Source of the DNA: a virus
Strand: one strand, 5' to 3'
DNA length: 42,234 bases
Virus record (IMG/VR): IMGVR_UViG_3300036770_002276
Span: 1 to 42,234 of that record
Made by a program: the position numbers and the translations under genes. This document shows, in pieces, positions 15,578 through 39,944 of the stretch. The first letter of the stretch is position 1. Each line of letters opens with the position of its first letter. Below the pieces are notes generated by a model. That model searched no databases and was not told the DNA's origin. It worked only from the letters and a program-made list of their open reading frames with translations.

Positions 15578-15596
15578 AAGTGTTAAAAAGTGTTAA
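15578..15596. repeat. Tandem AAGTGTTAA repeat (possible operator)
   Basis: AAGTGTTAAAAAGTGTTAA on the plus strand, the exact reverse complement of the elements at 12039-12057 and 26837-26855. It sits between the terminator at 15600-15621 and the promoter at 15542-15570, the same relative place but opposite orientation. Confidence 0.5.
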
Positions 15597-15599
15597 AAC

Positions 15600-15621
15600 A
15601 AAAAAGCCCCGATGTGGGGCT
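15600..15621 (-). terminator. Rho-independent terminator after the lipoprotein gene
   Basis: Minus-strand stem AGCCCC / GGGGCT with loop ACATC, followed by six T. It lies about 40 bases past the lipoprotein stop. The same hairpin sequence is repeated at 15966-15987, so the lipoprotein gene is bracketed by two copies of one terminator. Confidence 0.8.
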
Positions 15622-15658
15622 GTTGTGGTTGTGTTGGCTATGTAGTAATTATTTTTTG

Positions 15659-15941: not shown

Positions 15942-15968
15942 CAAACCTACAAAAAAAATCAACACAAA
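15942..15968 (-). promoter_or_regulatory. Cassette promoter ahead of the lipoprotein gene
   Basis: Minus strand: TTTG, 15 bases, then TAGGTTTG, followed by GGGTAAAT. The -33 TTTG is formed by the end of the T-tract of the terminator at 15966-15987, so terminator and promoter are fused in one compact unit. The ATG is 23 bases past the -7 box. Confidence 0.6.
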
Positions 15969-15987
15969 AAAGCCCCGATGTGGGGCT
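15966..15987 (-). terminator. Rho-independent terminator after the holin gene
   Basis: Same hairpin as at 15600-15621 (AGCCCC, loop, GGGGCT, T-tract) on the minus strand, 38 bases past the holin stop. It separates the late structural/holin transcript from the lipoprotein cassette. Confidence 0.8.
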
Positions 15988-16024
15988 GTTGTAACAAATA
16001 AAGTATTAATTCGTTTCTAAAGGC

Positions 16025-19541: not shown

Positions 19542-19865
19542 ATACCCTATCGGTGATTGGTTCACATCTATTGGTTTTGTATATACCCGATTGGGCATAA
19601 AAAAGCCCAACCGAAGTAGGGCTGTTGCGCCTATACATTTTGTATCGTCTCCGATATAGCTTATAGGTGGTGAATCAAATGTTACATTCTGATAATAGTT
19701 CTTGCCACATTTACAGCAAGTCCATATATCATCAGTTCCGTAAATACCATTTCGTTTCCAAAAGTGCAAACAAAACAAACGGCTTATAACACTAAATAAC
19801 CACCATTTTTTGCGGTAGTGCTTTATCCGAAGTTCATCTTTAAAATCAAGTTCGTTGTATATCAT
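19485..19865 (-). CDS. Accessory protein with zinc-knuckle-like motif; 3' end doubtful
   Basis: 126 residues as an open frame. The first 60 residues resemble small phage proteins with the layout CLHFWKRNG, then DDIWTCCKCGKNYYQNV, a probable half zinc site. From about residue 80 the frame reads through a complete terminator hairpin (19599-19623), encoding ATALLRLGFF, and then through two palindromes. The natural stop may have been lost by mutation, so the true product could be shorter. Upstream it follows a short AT-rich gap after the 85-residue gene. Function unknown. Confidence 0.5.
   Translation of the reverse strand: MIYNELDFKDELRIKHYRKKWWLFSVISRLFCLHFWKRNGIYGTDDIWTCCKCGKNYYQNVTFDSPPISYIGDDTKCIGATALLRLGFFMPNRVYTKPIDVNQSPIGYISPKVNYSLPFGELSHHW
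19599..19623 (-). terminator. UUCG-loop terminator inside the 126-residue frame
   Basis: Minus-strand stem AGCCCTAC / GTTGGGCT closed by a TTCG loop (one T-T mismatch), followed by six T. It is nearly the same sequence as the terminator at 20319-20343. Its position inside an open frame argues that the frame originally ended upstream. Confidence 0.7.
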
Positions 19866-20300: not shown

Positions 20301-20318
20301 GTTAAAATGTGTTAAAAC
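20301..20318. repeat. Degenerate tandem GTTAAAA repeat
   Basis: GTTAAAATGTGTTAAAAC on the plus strand, a weaker version of the 19-base tandem element at 15578-15596 and in the same orientation, again between terminator and promoter. Confidence 0.4.
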
Positions 20319-20343
20319 AAAAAAGCCCCACCGAAGTAGGGCT
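20319..20343 (-). terminator. UUCG-loop terminator after the scaffold-like gene
   Basis: Minus-strand stem AGCCCTAC / GTGGGGCT, 8 pairs, closed by the very stable C(UUCG)G loop, followed by a T-tract. It lies about 125 bases past the scaffold gene stop. Confidence 0.85.
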
Positions 20344-20375
20344 GTTTAATCAGTTCAGGCTTTTCAAATGCAAAA

Positions 20376-21703: not shown

Positions 21704-23509
21704 TTAGGCAAATCCACCCAATGCCGCTTGACCATCAATTGGTCTGCTTGTAAACGGCTCGGCAATTGAAGTGGCAATCCCAAGAACTATTTCACGTTGC
21801 TGCGCTGTTTCTAACTCATCAAAGTTTTCGTTCTCATCGTATGCCTGATTCAAGATAGTCACGAAACTATTGTGCAGAATAACCTCGGCCTCTGTTGCCG
21901 TGCTGCCCAACATGCCTCGAACGGTCAGGTCATCTTTTGACCATAGCCTGTCAAGTTTGATTTGCAGTTTAATCATTTTCTCAACCTTGGGTGATGCGTT
22001 AAATCTTGTACCGACATATTGGTAAAGCAAAGATGCGACTGCGCTGTCCGGCAACGACTGTTCTTTGGCTGTGCCGATTTCGCTGGTAATGTCCTCGTAG
22101 CTTCTAAAGTTAAACGATGTCGGTACTTGAATGCTTGGCTTTTCAAAGGTCGTACCATAACGCATCCAGCCAATGGCCTCGATTGCCATATCCATCAAAG
22201 CAAATAACTCACGGGCGAATTGCACCATAAAGGTCTGCCATTCTTCTTTCTCAATTTGCTTGCCAGTTGCCGTTGCCGAATTAGCTTGTTCGGGCTCGAA
22301 GAACATACCAAACGCTGACCGCCGTCTTGCTTCAATTTGGTCGCTGGTGTACTTTAGAATTTCGCTTGGGGGTGCAGCAAACTGAACGGGCGGCGACATG
22401 GCCAGTTGATTGGTTTCGCCCATTCTGGTTGTGGCCGCTACCTCGTATATCCCCGTTGGGCTGTGGTTTAGGTTCTTGCCTGTGCCGTTACACTTGCCGC
22501 AGGCAGAATAGCCGTTTGATTCGTTGTTCCAAACCTGACCGCCATCGCAGCCAGCGGCATCGCATCTATCAACTACGGCAATAATAATCGGGAAAGCCAA
22601 ACGATAGGTTGACATCATTAAATTACTTTCCAAGCGAATGACCGTGTTTAAGTGTGGGATTGCATCGGCAAAGGCAGACCGATATAAAACCTCGCCATCC
22701 TTCATCTCAGGCTTGCCGCCAAGTTTCCATGCTGGCAGATACCCCCAGCCATGCCGAAATACTTCGACCACTTCAAAGGTCAGGTTACCTTTTGCATCTT
22801 TGCCATTAACGTAGGCTTCGTAAATAGATAGCTTATCAACGTACTTAAAGCCCATTTTATCACCGTCCTTGCCGTTCCAAAGTAGCGCATACTCCCCAGC
22901 CTTGTAGCCAGCGATATACTTTTCCTCATAGATTTTGGCAACTGGCGAAATTAACTCGGACTGGTCAACCACTTCGTATTCGTTGCCTTCTTCATCAATG
23001 GCCGTTTTCATCGGCAGATATTCAGGGCAAACAAGTAACAACTGGTTAGGGTAATTTATCTTGCGCTCACGAACGATGTCGAAAAAGTAGGCTTCGATGC
23101 TGTAATACTCAGGGTAAAGCCCATAAAAATACTCCTTCTGCTCATCATTCGGCCACTCAATAGAATAGTTTTGACTATTGGCAACGGCCTTGGTTCTGTT
23201 CAATGCCCGATTCCATTCGGTGTTGGTCGTAGGTTCATAAAGCCCCTTTTGATATTCCCATTCTTCAGGTTGCTGGTTTGGTGCTTTTGACCGAAGGATT
23301 TCGTAGGGAAATTGGTTGGCCTCAGCATGAACACAAACGGCGTTATGTTCACGGATCGTGTACTCGTATATTTCGGTGAACTCAGGTAAACTTTCGTAGT
23401 ATGCCTCAGTTTGAAAGGTCTTATCGTACTTACTCGGCATCCCAATGATGCTGCGCTTTTTACGAATTTCTTTTGCTGCGTGGTCAATTAGGGCGAAAAT
23501 ATCTGCCAT
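21704..23509 (-). CDS. Portal protein with embedded zinc-finger insertion
   Basis: 601 residues, in the upper size range for portals. The upstream half is an alpha/beta wing; a conserved helical stem lies around AIPHLNTVIRLESNLMMSTY (283-302), followed by PPSEILKYTSDQIEARRRSAFGMF. At 316-340 there is an unusual insertion with two Cys pairs (CDAAGC and CGKC) and a DnaJ-like CGKCNGTG turn, predicted to bind zinc. The portal is the dodecameric ring through which DNA enters. The gene begins 30 bases after the glycosyltransferase stop. Confidence 0.8.
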   Translation of the reverse strand: MADIFALIDHAAKEIRKKRSIIGMPSKYDKTFQTEAYYESLPEFTEIYEYTIREHNAVCVHAEANQFPYEILRSKAPNQQPEEWEYQKGLYEPTTNTEWNRALNRTKAVANSQNYSIEWPNDEQKEYFYGLYPEYYSIEAYFFDIVRERKINYPNQLLLVCPEYLPMKTAIDEEGNEYEVVDQSELISPVAKIYEEKYIAGYKAGEYALLWNGKDGDKMGFKYVDKLSIYEAYVNGKDAKGNLTFEVVEVFRHGWGYLPAWKLGGKPEMKDGEVLYRSAFADAIPHLNTVIRLESNLMMSTYRLAFPIIIAVVDRCDAAGCDGGQVWNNESNGYSACGKCNGTGKNLNHSPTGIYEVAATTRMGETNQLAMSPPVQFAAPPSEILKYTSDQIEARRRSAFGMFFEPEQANSATATGKQIEKEEWQTFMVQFARELFALMDMAIEAIGWMRYGTTFEKPSIQVPTSFNFRSYEDITSEIGTAKEQSLPDSAVASLLYQYVGTRFNASPKVEKMIKLQIKLDRLWSKDDLTVRGMLGSTATEAEVILHNSFVTILNQAYDENENFDELETAQQREIVLGIATSIAEPFTSRPIDGQAALGGFA

Positions 23510-23539: not shown

Positions 23540-25297
23540 CTACCTTATATGCTTCAAAAGTTCTTTTAATGGTAGCCTAATGACCGCATCGGTGTAGTCG
23601 TGATGGCCAGCCAAAATCAGGCAATTGCCATCGGCATCAATCTCCAAATGGCTTGGGAATGTCACGAAATCCAGCATCGGCTTTCGCCAAGTATGCGGTG
23701 CTGGGGGTATGTCTTTACTATCCACAAAAGTAGCCTTCCAAAGCGGCGTTCTTGACCATCGCAAAGCCTTGAACGGCGGCTTGGCCTCCAACTCCATAAG
23801 CCCGGCCCAGTATAAATTGATAGCGTTCACCCTCTGCCGAACGTGAAAGATGGTGTAAAGTTTACCGCCATGCTCAACTAACTGTGTGCCTCCCCTGATA
23901 TGCCCCCGTGTCAAGGTCGGTATTTCGGTTTGGTATTCAGCAATTGGTTCGCCAAGGTCATACTTAACAACGTGGCCGGGCGCATAAAGAACGTGAAGGC
24001 GCCCATCGTAAACAAACGGTGACCAGTTTTTTTCTCGGCCATCGTGGTCTTTCGGTCTGCTTGCTGGGGGTTTCATCTGCCAACATTCTTGCGTGTCGAT
24101 ATACCCAAAGTACATCTTGCCCCCATCGTTGAAAACTAATGCTGGCCGCCCGTTAAACTCAAAGCATCGGGAATCTTCGGCATGCCCGTTTTCGGTCTTG
24201 AACTTTAGCAACTGCGGTGTTGAAAGGTTGCCGTCCGCCCAATCCATAATCGCCAATTTGCGGTCAGTAAAAAACTTGGGTTTGTCAAGCCTTACAACAT
24301 ACTTGCCCTGAACAATTGACCCATTGAAAGCGTTAGTGAAAGGCTTGGGTGCAGCCTTGCCGTATGGTAACAACTTCATCTCAGGTGTCAACGCTGGCAC
24401 AATAGCATCGTAGTGGATCCTGCGAACATCGGCCGCTGGCTTTTTGGTCGGCTTGCTTACGGCAAACTTGGCCTTCATCAGGTGATGCGATTTGCTGGCG
24501 GTAGAACTGCCGTACAATTGTTTTTCACAATAGGCCACAATCCGGTCATACATATCATAGGTGTATCGGGCTTCGGTGCTGTACTGCCCATAACACCCAA
24601 CGAAGTAATGGCTTTTTCTCAGTTCGCCAATGTCGGGCCGCTTGGCCTTAAACTGCACGGGCAACATCCCAAGGTCAGCGTTTATTTGCGTTTGAGCCAA
24701 GGCCACATTGAAAGCCAATTCATCGGGGAAACTATGCCCCCAGTGTTTCGTTGCCAAATGTTCACGGTAGTTCGCCTTGGCGTTCGCCCAAAACTTGGCA
24801 GCCTTGTCGGTCTTTCGCCAGTAGATGAACGAAGAATTGATTTCAGGTATTTCGCCTTCACTTGGCAGATTGTATTCGGCCTTCACATCAGGCAACGGCA
24901 ACCAAAGGCACGGCCATTTGTCGGCAGTTAGCGGCGATTTGCTAACCACTTGCGTAGCAATATCAAAACCAGCGCAAGCCTCCCATAAGGTCTGCAGTTC
25001 TTGTACAGCCACGCCATCAATATCAAGGTACATCGTTTCATCATACGGCGAATAAAGGTCTAAATGCAGTTTAAATTTGCCGGGTGCGATTCGTCCAGTA
25101 GCATCGTTCAAGTGTTCATTGTTAATAGAAACAACCTTGTCGATATACTTGCGTTCACGTTCAGGCAGTAGGTTAATATCACCAACAATTGAAATGGGTA
25201 CGTCAGGTGAAAAATGCGCCAGCGAATTCACCATATTTTTCGCCCATTGGCCGTAGCTTGAATTGCCTGATAAGAAAATTAAATAGCCTTTTTTCAT
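23540..25297 (-). CDS. Glycosyltransferase fused to GH130-like five-bladed propeller
   Basis: 585 residues in two parts. Residues 1-250 look like a GT-A glycosyltransferase of the GT8-like type, with DID at 92-94 (metal/nucleotide-sugar site), SSFIYW (155-160) and a late SHYFVGCYG. Residues 330-585 carry the GH43/GH130-like propeller marks in the right order: EDSRCFEFNGRPAL (an EDPR-type box, 374-), EKNWSPF (422-428), RGGTQLV (468-474) and AGHHDYTDAV (563-572). The family is known for mannoside phosphorylases and hydrolases. Substrate unknown; it lies between an accessory block and the portal gene, so particle or host-glycan modification is likely. Confidence 0.82.
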   Translation of the reverse strand: MKKGYLIFLSGNSSYGQWAKNMVNSLAHFSPDVPISIVGDINLLPERERKYIDKVVSINNEHLNDATGRIAPGKFKLHLDLYSPYDETMYLDIDGVAVQELQTLWEACAGFDIATQVVSKSPLTADKWPCLWLPLPDVKAEYNLPSEGEIPEINSSFIYWRKTDKAAKFWANAKANYREHLATKHWGHSFPDELAFNVALAQTQINADLGMLPVQFKAKRPDIGELRKSHYFVGCYGQYSTEARYTYDMYDRIVAYCEKQLYGSSTASKSHHLMKAKFAVSKPTKKPAADVRRIHYDAIVPALTPEMKLLPYGKAAPKPFTNAFNGSIVQGKYVVRLDKPKFFTDRKLAIMDWADGNLSTPQLLKFKTENGHAEDSRCFEFNGRPALVFNDGGKMYFGYIDTQECWQMKPPASRPKDHDGREKNWSPFVYDGRLHVLYAPGHVVKYDLGEPIAEYQTEIPTLTRGHIRGGTQLVEHGGKLYTIFHVRQRVNAINLYWAGLMELEAKPPFKALRWSRTPLWKATFVDSKDIPPAPHTWRKPMLDFVTFPSHLEIDADGNCLILAGHHDYTDAVIRLPLKELLKHIR

Positions 25298-25344: not shown

Positions 25345-25800
25345 CTAAAAATTGTTAGACTGCAAAGGCACTTCAAAAAATTTGCACTTTTCTTTTGGCA
25401 CATGATAAAACACGTCAGGGCCTTTTGTGCTATTTCGATTCACTTCTTTTTTTGTGCAATATTCATCCTTAAAAATATGTTGTGAATTACAAAGAACAGC
25501 ACCCGATGTTTCGGCACAAAGTATTACATACCAAAAACTGACTGGGTATTTCGATTTTCTTCCCAAGAAACTGACACTTTCAAATTTAAAATCATTTTGG
25601 CAAGTAAATTCATAGCCAACTTTACATTCAACTTCAAAATAATGGGTTTTGCCATTAAGTTCACATATAATGTCAATGCTGTAATTTTCTTCTTTATCGA
25701 TAATTTTAAAGCCCTTTGCCTGTAAAAAACTGCACAGCCTTTCTTTTGCAGCCTCATCGTATTTTCTATAATCGTCTTCACTAAATGTAGATACCTTCAT
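25345..25800 (-). CDS. PD-(D/E)xK nuclease-like accessory protein
   Basis: 151 residues. An N-terminal helix (YDEAAKERLCSFLQAKGF) is followed by IDIICELNGKTHYFEVECK, which fits the D-x(n)-ExK core of the PD-(D/E)xK fold (Asp about 43, Glu and Lys about 57-59). The rest is a strand-rich region with several Cys. The gene is AT-rich, ends in its own terminator, and stands apart from the structural genes beside it. It might be a restriction-like or anti-host nuclease, or a structural relative without activity. Confidence in the fold is moderate, in the function low. Confidence 0.6.
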   Translation of the reverse strand: MKVSTFSEDDYRKYDEAAKERLCSFLQAKGFKIIDKEENYSIDIICELNGKTHYFEVECKVGYEFTCQNDFKFESVSFLGRKSKYPVSFWYVILCAETSGAVLCNSQHIFKDEYCTKKEVNRNSTKGPDVFYHVPKEKCKFFEVPLQSNNF

Positions 25801-26855: not shown

Positions 26856-26861
26856 GGCAAC

Positions 26862-26885
26862 AAAAAAGCCCCACCGAAGTGAGGC
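26862..26885 (-). terminator. UUCG-loop terminator after the putative tail tube gene
   Basis: Minus-strand stem GCCTCAC / GTGGGGC around a TTCG loop, followed by six T, 26 bases past the stop at 26912. Sequence is close to the terminators at 20319-20343 and 19599-19623. Confidence 0.82.
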
Positions 26886-26911
26886 CCTTTTGATAACCAT
26901 GAAAACAACGC

Positions 26912-27442
26912 TTATTCAAAGATGCCTACAGGGGCATTGTAAAGAACTGGGAATTCATTTGGGGCAGATTGCCAACCGAAGGTAACAATGTACTGCTGAA
27001 CATCATTCTCATCAGCTTTGGCGGGTTTTGCGATGCAACGAACAGGCTGCTCAACTACACGAATTTCATCCTCCTCGTAGTAGAACCAAGCCAATTTGTA
27101 TTTGCCGATCGTGTTCAAAGTTTCGTAGAAGCTGTCGTTGCTGCTATCTACGTTCGCATCCATCACGCTTAAGGTGTGGTTGAACTTGGTCAAGATGTCG
27201 GGCGTACCTCTCCGTGGGTTGCTGATAGTAACCTCCTCAGCTTCGGGGTAGTTTGCCTTGATTTCTTTGATAATGGCAACATCACCAGCGGCGATAGCAG
27301 CAGTCCACTCAGCAGCATCGGTGTAGTCAAGAAAGGTGTAATCGTTGTCAATTACAGCAACGGCAGAAATGCCCGTAAGCCTGTTTACTTCGCAGACGTT
27401 TTCGCTGTAAACGGGTAAGTTGTCGAAACAAGAATAACTCAT
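26912..27442 (-). CDS. Putative tail tube / structural protein
   Basis: 176 residues, acidic and soluble. Strand-rich pattern with TGISAVAVIDNDYTFLD near the start, DSFYETLNTIGKYKLAWFYYE in the middle and QQYIVTFGWQSAPNEFPVLYN near the C-terminus, which resembles small tail tube proteins of Bacteroidota phages. It has its own promoter (27465-27472) and its own terminator, fitting a gene expressed at high level. Its exact role is not proven by the sequence; a head decoration protein is possible. Confidence 0.5.
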   Translation of the reverse strand: MSYSCFDNLPVYSENVCEVNRLTGISAVAVIDNDYTFLDYTDAAEWTAAIAAGDVAIIKEIKANYPEAEEVTISNPRRGTPDILTKFNHTLSVMDANVDSSNDSFYETLNTIGKYKLAWFYYEEDEIRVVEQPVRCIAKPAKADENDVQQYIVTFGWQSAPNEFPVLYNAPVGIFE

Positions 27443-27526: not shown

Positions 27527-27886
27527 ATGGACATCAGCCATTTGTCGCTTGCTGAACTTTTTGACCTTAAATCTGCGGTGAATAAGGCTATAAATCACCG
27601 CATTTCATCCGCTGCCGATGACTTTATTTGGCAACTTTGCGCCCATTACGGTGTTGATTTGAGCCAATTCAAGCAAGCAAGTAGGCGGCAGTATGCGGAT
27701 ATTAAGCGAATCGCATCGTACTACTTCGTTTCAATGAAAGGCTTAAGCCAATCCGAAGCGGCAGAAATAATCGGCATCAGTCGGGTAACGGTTGCCCAGC
27801 ACGTGGCCAAAGTTCAACATTACAAGCGTTCAATCCCCGGCAAATGGTTTGCCATATTCAACACAATTCAATCAGTAACAAAATGA
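27527..27886 (+). CDS. DnaA domain IV-type helix-turn-helix protein
   Basis: 119 residues. After an N-terminal helical segment, residues 50-100 match the DnaA C-terminal DNA-binding layout: SRRQYADIKRIASYYF, GLSQSEAAEIIG and SRVTVAQHVAKV, where TVxxH corresponds to the DnaA-box-reading helix. It lacks an ATPase. It is the first gene of the small plus-strand operon and lies next to mirrored promoters, so it could autoregulate this region. It overlaps the glycosyltransferase start as ATGA. Confidence 0.75.
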   Translation: MDISHLSLAELFDLKSAVNKAINHRISSAADDFIWQLCAHYGVDLSQFKQASRRQYADIKRIASYYFVSMKGLSQSEAAEIIGISRVTVAQHVAKVQHYKRSIPGKWFAIFNTIQSVTK

Positions 27887-28515
27887 AACCCGTAGCAGTA
27901 ACCCTTGGCATCGGCGATTACCTGAAGTACGCTGAAAAATCGGCAGAACTTGTCCGCAAGCATCTTGGCCTTGAAACCCGAATAATCACCGACGAACATC
28001 TTGGCCATGCCTTGCGAATGGCTGAATTCAAGCATTCGGTTTGGACGCTAAAGTATAAGATATGGGACATTTTCCCTGACCTTGACTTGGTGATGTATCA
28101 CGATTGCGATTGGCGGCCAGTTCGGGATTTCGATTTGCAGGATCATCTTCCCGATTTCAAAGACGTTTACTTTTGCCTTGACCGGGATAATGACCACACC
28201 AAGGGCCTTGAACAAAAATACCGCTTAAAGCCATCGACCTATTTCAATGCCGGTTGGTTTGTAGCTAACCGCAAGCATAAGCCGATATTTGATTTCTGCT
28301 ACAAAAACTATTTCAGGTACGAAAACAAATGGGGTGACCAATGCGTTTCAAATCAGGTATTCAAAAACTTGGTCACGCTGGCCGATAAGCGAATGAACGT
28401 GATGGACGTTGGGACAAATATCCCCAATGAAGAAGTGCTGGCTTTTCACTCATCATTAAACTACCCTGTTTACGAAGGCAAAGAACCTTGCCAAATTACT
28501 GGGCAAATGCTATAA
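27883..28515 (+). CDS. Glycosyltransferase, GT-A / GT8-like
   Basis: 210 residues. The start at 27883 overlaps the regulator stop as ATGA. Features are VAVTLGIGDYLKYAEKSAELV at the N-terminus, LKYKIWDIFPDLDLVMYHDCDW (metal-binding DCD at 74-76) and YFNAGWFVANRK (120-131), the usual order of a retaining GT-A fold. It transfers a sugar from a nucleotide donor; the acceptor is unknown. It runs convergent to the methyltransferase gene with a 20-base overlap at the stops, so the two functions are adjacent but oppositely transcribed. Confidence 0.83.
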   Translation: MKPVAVTLGIGDYLKYAEKSAELVRKHLGLETRIITDEHLGHALRMAEFKHSVWTLKYKIWDIFPDLDLVMYHDCDWRPVRDFDLQDHLPDFKDVYFCLDRDNDHTKGLEQKYRLKPSTYFNAGWFVANRKHKPIFDFCYKNYFRYENKWGDQCVSNQVFKNLVTLADKRMNVMDVGTNIPNEEVLAFHSSLNYPVYEGKEPCQITGQML

Positions 28516-29101
28516 GCAAATTGTTATCCACATTGTTGTATTCGTGTGGTATTCGTGTTAATTCAAATCTGATATTAGGGTAAACTTGCGATAGTAATTT
28601 AAGGTTCTGCCTGAATAAATTAACCGACCTTGCCGTCAAATCTTCGATAATATACACCCCGTTTGGCTTCAATTTGTGTATGAAATTCACCATAAATGTC
28701 ATGTTGGCCTCAAATTCATGCAGCCCGTCATCAATAATAATGTCAAATTCAACACCATCTAATTGGTCGCATAGGTCGGCAATGGCTACTGAATCTGTTT
28801 GGTCGCAATAGTAGGTCTTCATTCTGCCGCCCGAAAACAATATGCTGCGGTCAATGTCTGCCCCGTATATTTGGCCGTTTTGAAAATATTCAGCCCAGCC
28901 CCTTAATGATGCGCCCGGCTTGCCATCTGCCCCCATGTTTGAAGGTATGCTGGTATTATTTGTACCAAGGCCAAGTTCAAAAAGGTTAATTGAATCTTGC
29001 CGCTTGCCGCTAAATAATTCGTGGTAAATTGTAGTGTAGTTATGCCAGCCAAGCCCTTTGTCGCTGCCGTGCCGCTTCATTATTTCACATAGTTCTGTCA
29101 T
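28496..29101 (-). CDS. SAM-dependent sugar O-methyltransferase-like protein
   Basis: 201 residues of the class I methyltransferase fold. The N-terminal HGSDKGLGWHNYT and IYHELF, motif I LFELGLGTNN (40-49), GASLRGWAEYF, QIYGADID (77-84) and DIIIDDGLHEF (120-130) match the MycE/ElmMI group of sugar O-methyltransferases, in which DDGxH is at the active site. It probably methylates a hydroxyl of a sugar. It overlaps the MuF-like gene as ATGA and abuts a glycosyltransferase gene, consistent with a glycan-decoration set. Confidence 0.85.
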   Translation of the reverse strand: MTELCEIMKRHGSDKGLGWHNYTTIYHELFSGKRQDSINLFELGLGTNNTSIPSNMGADGKPGASLRGWAEYFQNGQIYGADIDRSILFSGGRMKTYYCDQTDSVAIADLCDQLDGVEFDIIIDDGLHEFEANMTFMVNFIHKLKPNGVYIIEDLTARSVNLFRQNLKLLSQVYPNIRFELTRIPHEYNNVDNNLLIAFAQ

Positions 29102-38288: not shown

Positions 38289-38863
38289 TGTGCTTTGCTG
38301 AATTTGTTCAAATATACAGAAGAATCGGCAAAACATGGTGATGAAATTTTGACATAAGCATCTTTCTTGCCAAGTATCGCACTCCACAACTTGCCACCAA
38401 ACCATTTGCCGGGCCTTTCCCAATATCCCACCACGTTCAATTCGTAGTCGGTTTGAATCGTAACAACGGCTGGCTTTTCGGGATGCACAATTGCGGCAAA
38501 TTTCATGCACATGGTGTCAAGTTTGAAGGATTGGATCGGGCACGGCAAAGTTTCGATATGCCACCTATCAACCTCTACCTCAAAACTATCAATCTTGGTG
38601 CGCCACTTGGTGCGGTACACGAATTCAACACGGCTGCCTTTGATTTTCAGGCTATCAAGTAGCCGCCGATTCTCTTCCCGTAACTGGTCATTTGTCAAGG
38701 TCAATGTTCGGGCGGTTGCCGATGCCGTCTGCTGAATTGCCTCGTAATTGCTTGCATGCCGTTCGGCCTCGGCCTTATAGTTACATGACTGCTTACCCAA
38801 GATGAAAGCGGCAATCAGGGCAATGATGCCCCAATGCCGCAGAACAAATCCAGTCCAGTTCAT
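38285..38863 (-). CDS. Spanin-like protein with membrane anchor and coiled coil
   Basis: 192 residues. One N-terminal membrane segment (about 7-22, WGIIALIAAFILGKQSC) and a coiled coil (28-75), then a beta-rich C-terminal part with paired Cys (CPIQSFKLDTMCMK, SSPCFADSSV). The ATG overlaps the phosphoesterase stop as ATGA. The long periplasmic helix after an inner-membrane anchor next to lysis genes suggests an Rz-like i-spanin; no outer-membrane partner is evident beside it, although a lipoprotein is encoded at 15659-15919. Confidence 0.62.
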   Translation of the reverse strand: MNWTGFVLRHWGIIALIAAFILGKQSCNYKAEAERHASNYEAIQQTASATARTLTLTNDQLREENRRLLDSLKIKGSRVEFVYRTKWRTKIDSFEVEVDRWHIETLPCPIQSFKLDTMCMKFAAIVHPEKPAVVTIQTDYELNVVGYWERPGKWFGGKLWSAILGKKDAYVKISSPCFADSSVYLNKFSKAQ

Positions 38864-39894
38864 CGTACCTTGCGATTGTCAATCCTAAAATTCTCAACAC
38901 TAAAGCTGCCGTCTTCTTCGATTTCGACAATGGCCGCCCCGTGATTCCACTTTGTAAAAGCAAAAGGCCGATAAGCTGGGCGAAGGTCACAAAGGCAACC
39001 CGTAGAAAAGCAAGCAACTCCTTTGCCGTTTAGGTCGCTTTCGTGATGCTCCGATGTTTGATGGTTGTGGCCAGCCAAGGTAGATGCCTTGCCACGTAAG
39101 AACAACCCCCGTGCTGGGTTTACTGGGCTGAAGATGCTATCCCCAAATTCGTGCCCGTGAATGACGTTCAACTTACCAAACTTCGCTACCTGTTTGCTAT
39201 CGATTAACTCAATCTCAAAATCATCCAAGCCAAGGGCCTTTTTCAATTGTAACCCGTCAAGGCCATGCAGTTCAGGTGCGTTCTGCAAGATGTAGCGTTC
39301 CCACCTGTCCTCATGGTTGCCCAGCTTGTAATACACGTCAACACCAAGGTTTGAAATGCCTTCAAAGAAGTTACGGGCCATGCCTACCTCAACAACGGCA
39401 GATGTAATGGCTGGGTCTTTTTCCCAACGGCTAATCTTGGCGAAATCAATCACATCCCCATTCAGGTAAATGCCGTCAATGCCTGACTTAAACCCGTAAT
39501 CAATAGCCGTTTCTAATGCCTCCAAAGAATGGTAAGGTATATGAATATCCGATAAGACCAACACCTTGCGGTGATGCGAAGGCAAATACCAATCGGCCTT
39601 GCTGGTAGTTTCGCCACGCTGAATAAAACTTGCCATGTATTCGCTTGGCTTCATTTCATCCCTTACAAACTCAGGACGTAGTTTGCCTGAACTTGCAGCC
39701 AGTTTACGATGGTAATCGCCACCAGCACCTATGCGATACCTGATATTTCGCCTTACGTTGTCGATTTCTTTGTCGGTTTGGTCAAATATGCCGGGGTTTT
39801 CGGCCACGATTTTTCTTGCTAATGTTCGGGCAAAAAAACCCGGTTGCTGTTCATCAAGGTATTTGTCAATGATTTCAGTTCTTTGTTTACTCAT
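38860..39894 (-). CDS. Calcineurin-like metallophosphoesterase (copy 2)
   Basis: 344 residues with the same complete metal-site series as copy 1 (SDIH, NGDVID, GNHE, GHNH). The N-terminal linker differs (NVRRNIRYRIGAGGDYHRKLAA here, GVRRAIRYRIGTVGDFNRQWAK there), while the catalytic part differs in only a handful of residues in spite of many silent base changes. ATG 39894 corresponds to 1284 in copy 1. It lies between the promoter-bearing gap after the amidase and the spanin gene. Confidence 0.88.
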   Translation of the reverse strand: MSKQRTEIIDKYLDEQQPGFFARTLARKIVAENPGIFDQTDKEIDNVRRNIRYRIGAGGDYHRKLAASSGKLRPEFVRDEMKPSEYMASFIQRGETTSKADWYLPSHHRKVLVLSDIHIPYHSLEALETAIDYGFKSGIDGIYLNGDVIDFAKISRWEKDPAITSAVVEVGMARNFFEGISNLGVDVYYKLGNHEDRWERYILQNAPELHGLDGLQLKKALGLDDFEIELIDSKQVAKFGKLNVIHGHEFGDSIFSPVNPARGLFLRGKASTLAGHNHQTSEHHESDLNGKGVACFSTGCLCDLRPAYRPFAFTKWNHGAAIVEIEEDGSFSVENFRIDNRKVR

Positions 39895-39915
39895 GGTTTC
39901 CCTTTTTGGTTTAGC

Positions 39916-39944
39916 CAAATTTAGTTAAAATGCAATAGGCCAAA
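39916..39944 (-). promoter_or_regulatory. Bacteroidota-type promoter ahead of the phosphoesterase gene (copy 2)
   Basis: TTTG, 17 bases, then TAAATTTG on the minus strand. Compared with 1306-1334 the spacer and the n positions have drifted while both boxes are unchanged. This comparison is the best internal evidence for the promoter pattern used throughout this annotation. Confidence 0.68.

Follow-up and report, generated by a model that had tools for sequence, protein, structure and literature searches.

We report that the window (the whole 42,234-nt stretch analysed, from IMG/VR virus record IMGVR_UViG_3300036770_002276, an uncultured tailed phage) carries a gene whose product joins a GT8-like glycosyltransferase domain to a GH130-type beta-propeller, with conserved active-site residues in both domains, strong purifying selection and conserved synteny next to the portal gene. 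Our preferred reading, held tentatively and with a little less than even confidence, is that the protein is a bifunctional glycan builder, an alpha-transferase combined with a propeller adding a beta-linked sugar; we infer the activity of each domain, the identity of the sugars, transfer over phosphorolysis, and the acceptor. Both domains fall into known fold classes. Their fusion appears undescribed, as does the EKNWxPF propeller family associated with transferases, in the papers we searched (few subscription journals were covered); the earlier note likewise did not know the fusion as a described phage enzyme.

The fusion gene and its N-terminal transferase domain

The gene is a single open reading frame containing the motifs that the earlier note had read from it, i.e., DID (residues 92–94), EDSR (374–377), EKNWSPF (422–428), RGGTQLV (468–474) and GHHDYTDAV (564–572). 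Its parts are as follows.

23540..25297, minus strand: whole fusion gene (585 aa, ATG start), GT8-like transferase plus GH130-type propeller
24512..25297, minus strand: GT8-like GT-A domain, residues 1–262 (hhalign to GT8; weak PDB profile matches)
25016..25024, minus strand: DID (D92-I93-D94), the DxD metal/nucleotide motif, D92 and D94 invariant (alignments A1 and A8)
24353..24511, minus strand: linker, residues 263–315, of low model confidence (pLDDT about 36–70)
23543..24352, minus strand: five-bladed GH130-type beta-propeller, residues ~316–585 (profile, hhalign and model superposition)

The fusion protein is encoded at 19 IMG/VR loci, and all loci with the full gene have the two-part form, at 70–96% identity. 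Compared with three close relatives, dN/dS is 0.03–0.10 and similar across the transferase, linker and propeller segments, which indicates that both domains are under purifying selection. A distant phage (L359, a 46.8-kb contig) encodes a full-length two-part homologue with 27% identity over ~630 columns (E 1e-41). Searched directly against Pfam and NCBIfam, the window protein had no match, and single-sequence PDB searches gave chance matches only. The AlphaFold2 model of the fusion (pLDDT 81, pTM 0.52) was obtained with a diverse alignment of 34 sequences (A6) as input, and the mutual orientation of the two domains in it should not be trusted; an alignment of 13 close relatives as input yielded a pLDDT of 33.5, and alignment A5, in which blade 1 slid into the N-terminal part, was discarded.

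According to its sequence profiles, the N-terminal part is a GT8-like GT-A domain falling under the Pfam GT8 cut-off. Using hhalign, a profile of 18 relatives matched bacterial GT8 proteins with a probability of 95.7 (E 1e-8, 112 columns; cross-controls 0.2%), in agreement with the GT-A transferase proposed for this part from the letters alone. In the PDB profile search, the 20 matches were GT8 proteins throughout (glycogenins and Skp1 galactosyltransferase), although each was weak (E 0.007–0.6). With Pfam PF01501 (GT8; cut-off 24.3 bits) the window protein has no match, and the related phage proteins L310 and L339 score 22.9 and 20.3 bits, respectively; a single-sequence search of the domain returned only phrog_1903, a family of unknown function. 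The GT-A fold call was made from profiles, secondary structure in the model (pLDDT mostly 70–97 in this domain, weaker at 211–250) and BFVD matches to viral transferases over about 210–235 columns.

By scanning for the pattern P[FY]DxTxYxDxD we retrieved phage proteins, and the window-family profile matches standalone phage transferases of 250–310 aa (L339 with E 5e-32, L310, L392, L282 and L342). Conservation counts for P-x-D-x-T-x-Y-x-D-x-D are partly circular, as the same pattern fetched the loci, and the invariance of DxD in pattern-found loci is partly by construction; homologues found by BLAST keep the DxD too. As the first step of the proposed building reaction, this domain would attach an alpha-linked sugar, drawing on a nucleotide sugar and a metal bound at the DxD (the rule in GT8 is retaining chemistry).

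Fold and active site of the propeller

The earlier note had described a GH130-like propeller with a GH43/GH130 motif series; the propeller appears to be of GH130 rather than GH43 type. A profile of 24 propeller members (A7) searched against PDB hit solved GH130 structures at E 4e-20, beta-1,2-mannobiose phosphorylases first, and in an hhalign comparison with aligned 7FIP, 9FJ8 and bacterial GH130 sequences the probability was 99.4 (E 3e-21). By VIA, model residues 299–585 (pLDDT of the propeller part mostly above 80) align with GH130 (4udg) at Z 26.4 and rmsd 2.6 over 262 residues, as compared to Z ~20–21 (20.8) for Leishmania GT108. GH43/GH62 structures reach Z <=19 as compared to 26.4 for GH130, and a GH43 identity was set aside on these scores; with PF04616 (GH43), 1 of the 24 relatives has a weak match. 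The window protein is unmatched by Pfam PF04041 (GH130), which scores 40.4 bits in the L359 homologue (cut-off 26) and matches 15 of the 24 propeller relatives at E <=0.01, several of them over the Pfam cut-off. PF12141 (BMT, GT91) has no match to the window protein either; 5 of the 24 relatives match it over EKNW..RGG, the best with E 4e-5, below the cut-off. PDB profile searches gave no GT108 sequence match to the propeller, an absence that is uninformative there.

The active-site features, all on the minus strand, are listed below; the K-I-G and Y-H-G motifs we take, from GH130 structures, to hold the phosphate-site Lys and His.

24167..24178, minus strand: EDSR (E374–R377), the GH130 catalytic-Asp motif, aligned with EDPR of 7FIP
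24014..24034, minus strand: EKNWSPF (422–428), the family signature; K423 aligns with the K of GH130 NKDAAL
23876..23902, minus strand: H466–V474, including R468-G-G-T, aligned to the GH130 phosphate-site K-I-G motif
23843..23845, minus strand: H485, aligned to the His of the GH130 YHG motif
23597..23599, minus strand: D567, aligned to the conserved GH130 G-x-x-D Asp (BT3780 D363 type)

In the hhalign comparison, the columns matching GH130 residues are N325, R336, E374-D375, K423, H485 and D567, and EDSR of the window protein reads EDPR in most relatives. Among 58 non-redundant propellers, the counts are 52/52 for N325, 51/53 for R336, 57/57 for both D375 and R377, 58/58 for H485, 46/58 for R468 and 41/43 non-gap rows for D567. 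Conservation of EKNWxPF is by construction (the motif was used to find the loci), and the other propeller columns are not circular. The phosphate-site Lys column is H466 here and varies in the family (H/E/S/T/R/K), and the third basic phosphate-site position is K394 here and R/Q/D/T in other members.

These columns bear on whether the propeller is an enzyme at all. It was suggested with the original reading that a propeller lacking its catalytic acids would be a binding module, and at the sequence level the acid Asp D375 is kept in 57/57 non-redundant propellers. A non-catalytic, acceptor-recognising propeller, presenting a glycan or protein acceptor to the GT8-like domain, would fit the variable phosphate-site Lys position and the attachment of such propellers to many unrelated transferases and methyltransferases, as expected for a targeting module. 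Binding modules usually lose catalytic residues, however, whereas D375 (57/57), H485 (58/58) and the sugar-binding N325, R336 and D567 are all kept here, and propellers of 294 aa also stand alone; we consider a purely recognising role unlikely.

For comparison, the GH130 enzyme BT3780 requires D142 (equivalent to the ED-motif Asp) and D363 (GxxD-type) and uses E227/E268 as base, and GH130 phosphorylases have three basic phosphate-binding residues instead of the Glu base (PMC4599007). In the window protein the Glu pair is unmatched, with H466 (at the Lys position) and H485 (at the His position) in its place (BT3780 itself was absent from the alignment, and the positions are as aligned), and out of the three basic phosphate-site residues only the His (H485) is kept. 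With the GH130 residues kept, the Glu pair absent and the Lys varied, the site is predicted from the alignments to retain what sugar binding and acid catalysis require, and it is neither of the hydrolase type nor a canonical phosphorylase. Glycan trimming, the other activity that had been suggested for this enzyme, thus finds no footing in the active site, given the absent BT3780-type Glu pair and the variable Lys position. Since this position varies, some members may have changed or lost the leaving-group chemistry; R468, two residues away from the Lys position, could by its place in the sequence substitute for the Lys. K423 may correspond to K199 of BT3780, the Lys setting beta-1,2 specificity (again with BT3780 outside the alignment).

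An inverting hydrolase of GH130_NC or GH43 type that trims host surface glycans would share the fold class, and GH130 does contain hydrolases such as BT3780 (PMC4599007), but beyond the unmatched base pair and the lower GH43/GH62 scores, the protein is without an obvious N-terminal signal sequence and its chain starts with the GT-A domain, making this reading very improbable. A true beta-mannoside phosphorylase, cleaving beta-mannosides or making them in reverse, and so feeding or trimming glycans in line with the building and trimming proposed in the earlier note, is distinctly unlikely: among solved sequences the nearest are indeed phosphorylases of beta-1,2-mannobiose and -oligomannan, H485 corresponds to the phosphate-site His and R468 is close to the Lys position, but neither the Lys (H466) nor the third basic position (K394) is conserved, and the fusion to a transferase speaks for synthesis.

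Under the preferred building reading, the GH130-fold propeller would add, in a second step, a beta-linked and probably mannosyl-type sugar by an inverting reaction of the GH130/GT108 type. D375 would be the acid, relaying its proton through the sugar, and H485 and R468 would sit close to the leaving group, a phosphate or a nucleotide phosphate; with both domains in one chain, the two steps would be consecutive. The resemblance in fold to the GDP-Man-dependent GT108 mannosyltransferases (Z 20.8), the rank of beta-1,2-mannoside phosphorylases as first profile hits and the sub-cut-off PF12141 matches of some family members count for this mechanism, and the weak GT91 link and the lack of a window-protein match to either PF04041 or PF12141 count against it.

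Genomic neighborhood and candidate acceptors

Three neighboring genes are relevant to the possible target of the enzyme.

21704..23509, minus strand: portal gene, directly downstream of the fusion (phrog_7376 with E 4e-16; synteny)
26912..27442, minus strand: gene for a 176-aa protein, 97–100% conserved in relatives
27844..28515, plus strand: second GT8-like transferase gene (PF01501, 25.8 bits, over the cut-off)

The placement beside the portal gene pointed out in the earlier note recurs in the relatives: the fusion is immediately upstream of the portal in every relative locus that includes that side. The order of the 176-aa protein, fusion and portal is fixed in relatives with those flanks, and what varies is the stretch separating the 176-aa gene from the fusion. 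Identity of the 176-aa protein stays at 97–100%, unusually high, and neighboring genes drop to 64–85% in more distant relatives; it is possibly a major virion protein and is also a candidate acceptor for the fusion enzyme. The second GT8-like gene, which may act together with the fusion enzyme, is 69–93% identical in most relatives with flanks reaching that far and was not found in L004. Two other genes, 28496–29101 (methyltransferase-like) and 25345–25800 (small, with a weak UPF0102 match), look like exchangeable slots, since neither was detected in the 18 relative loci checked.

The distant L359 contig has a similar arrangement, with its fusion flanked by a 187-aa protein homologous to the 176-aa one (22% identity, E 4e-7) and by a portal that shares 24% identity with the window portal (E 5e-40), and with a MuF-like head protein (27% identity, E 9e-45) beyond the portal. 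Two genes are inserted ahead of the L359 portal, one methyltransferase-like and the other again transferase-like; the methyltransferase-like one adjoins the fusion and has no detectable similarity to the gene at 28496–29101.

Fixed placement in the structural block of two lineages suggests a virion target, and a fusion lying between a ~180-aa protein and portals only 24% identical was counted in favor of the glycan builder, whose likely acceptor is a phage structural protein encoded in that late region or, alternatively, a glycan on the host surface. An enzyme directed at host surface or capsule glycans instead of the virion (e.g. for a superinfection block) would be compatible with any of the readings of the propeller, and phage transferases are classically serotype-converting, but the position between structural genes, fixed in two distant lineages, argues the other way, and we regard a host target as rather unlikely. 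Mycobacteriophages are known to encode transferases for virion glycosylation (PMC11256854, citing Freeman et al. 2023). The fusion, the second GT8-like gene and the 176-aa protein form a small candidate gene set for glycosylating the virions of uncultured environmental phages.

We also note some features of the record itself. The contig ends, 1–3783 and 38611–42212, repeat each other with about 89–93% identity, and the record appears to overrun a circularly permuted genome of ~38.4 kb into a second strain variant; the metallo-phosphoesterase genes at 253–1317 and 38863–39918 are copies within these repeated ends. Terminator-like AAAAAAGCCCC...GGGGCT repeats are found between genes at 15594–15626, 15951–15992, 19596–19627, 20304–20347 and 26859–26890, accompanied by a ACCCCAAACCTA-type intergenic repeat.

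The EKNWxPF propeller family and comparison with known systems

A profile-based genome scan found no relative; searching viral and bacterial contigs for the EKNWxPF DNA pattern, followed by iterated profile search, gave a large propeller family. Some of its propellers are joined to GT4 (L129; PF00534 weak, phrog_2170 strong), to GT25 (L110, with L059 similar), to GT2 and TPR (L117, phrog_13126 with E 1e-26; L146 and L089 similar) and to a methyltransferase part (L131, with L115 similar), and the standalone form of 294 aa is found in L084/L088/L101. Bacterial carriers include contigs of Chlamydiae, Actinomycetota and Paraburkholderia. The claim of glycan building draws its support from the repeated joining of propellers to GT2, GT4 and GT25, together with the intact DxD in the GT8-like domain.

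In Chlamydiae, single-domain EKNWxPF propellers have a hydrophobic N-terminal segment (L157, L248, L253, L166, L197, L202, L188, L196 and L208), a sequence feature that suggests exported or membrane-anchored enzymes, and the genes are often adjacent (L196, L197 and L253; also L214). Two adjacent EKNWxPF propeller genes are also seen in L105/L130, where a methyltransferase-like part follows the second in the same ORF.

The family appears to be a large and as yet unnamed branch of the GH130 clan, associated with transferases and not with degradation genes. Taken broadly, EKNWxPF propellers could be undescribed propeller-fold glycosyltransferases between the GH130 phosphorylases and GT108/GT91, widespread in phages and bacteria and fused to transferases for adding consecutive sugars, with the phage glycosylating its own virion; as a whole this is possible but doubtful.

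Among known systems, two uncharacterised proteins of uncultured Caudovirales, A0A6J5KNP8 (E 1e-16) and A0A6J7VNR9 (E 3e-15), align across the whole fusion model in Foldseek and presumably have the same two-domain build, both being predicted models only. The GT-A domain has the DxD region and flanking strand in common with GT8 (glycogenin and the Skp1 galactosyltransferase Gat1), but it does not reach the Pfam cut-off and belongs to the separate phage family phrog_1903. The GH130 beta-1,2-mannoside phosphorylases (Lin0857 5B0P, Teth514_1789 7FIP and Teth514_1788 9FJ8) are likewise five-bladed propellers, and their ED(P)R, N, R, Lys, His and GxxD columns align with those of the fusion; the fusion propeller differs from them in its low identity (about 12–18%), the EKNWxPF signature, the replaced phosphate-site Lys and the attached transferase. 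The link to the GT91 fungal beta-1,2-mannosyltransferases (Pfam BMT) consists of the sub-cut-off matches of some propeller relatives over EKNW..RGG. The GT108 enzymes of Leishmania (MTP1-4, 6Q4W–6Q50) have the propeller fold in common with the fusion (Z about 20–21) but no detectable sequence match to it in PDB searches, and we know of no GT-A domain in them. These enzymes show that the propeller fold is capable of GDP-Man transfer, and with the EKNWxPF family it can be tested directly whether five-bladed propellers serve as transferases generally, beyond Leishmania.
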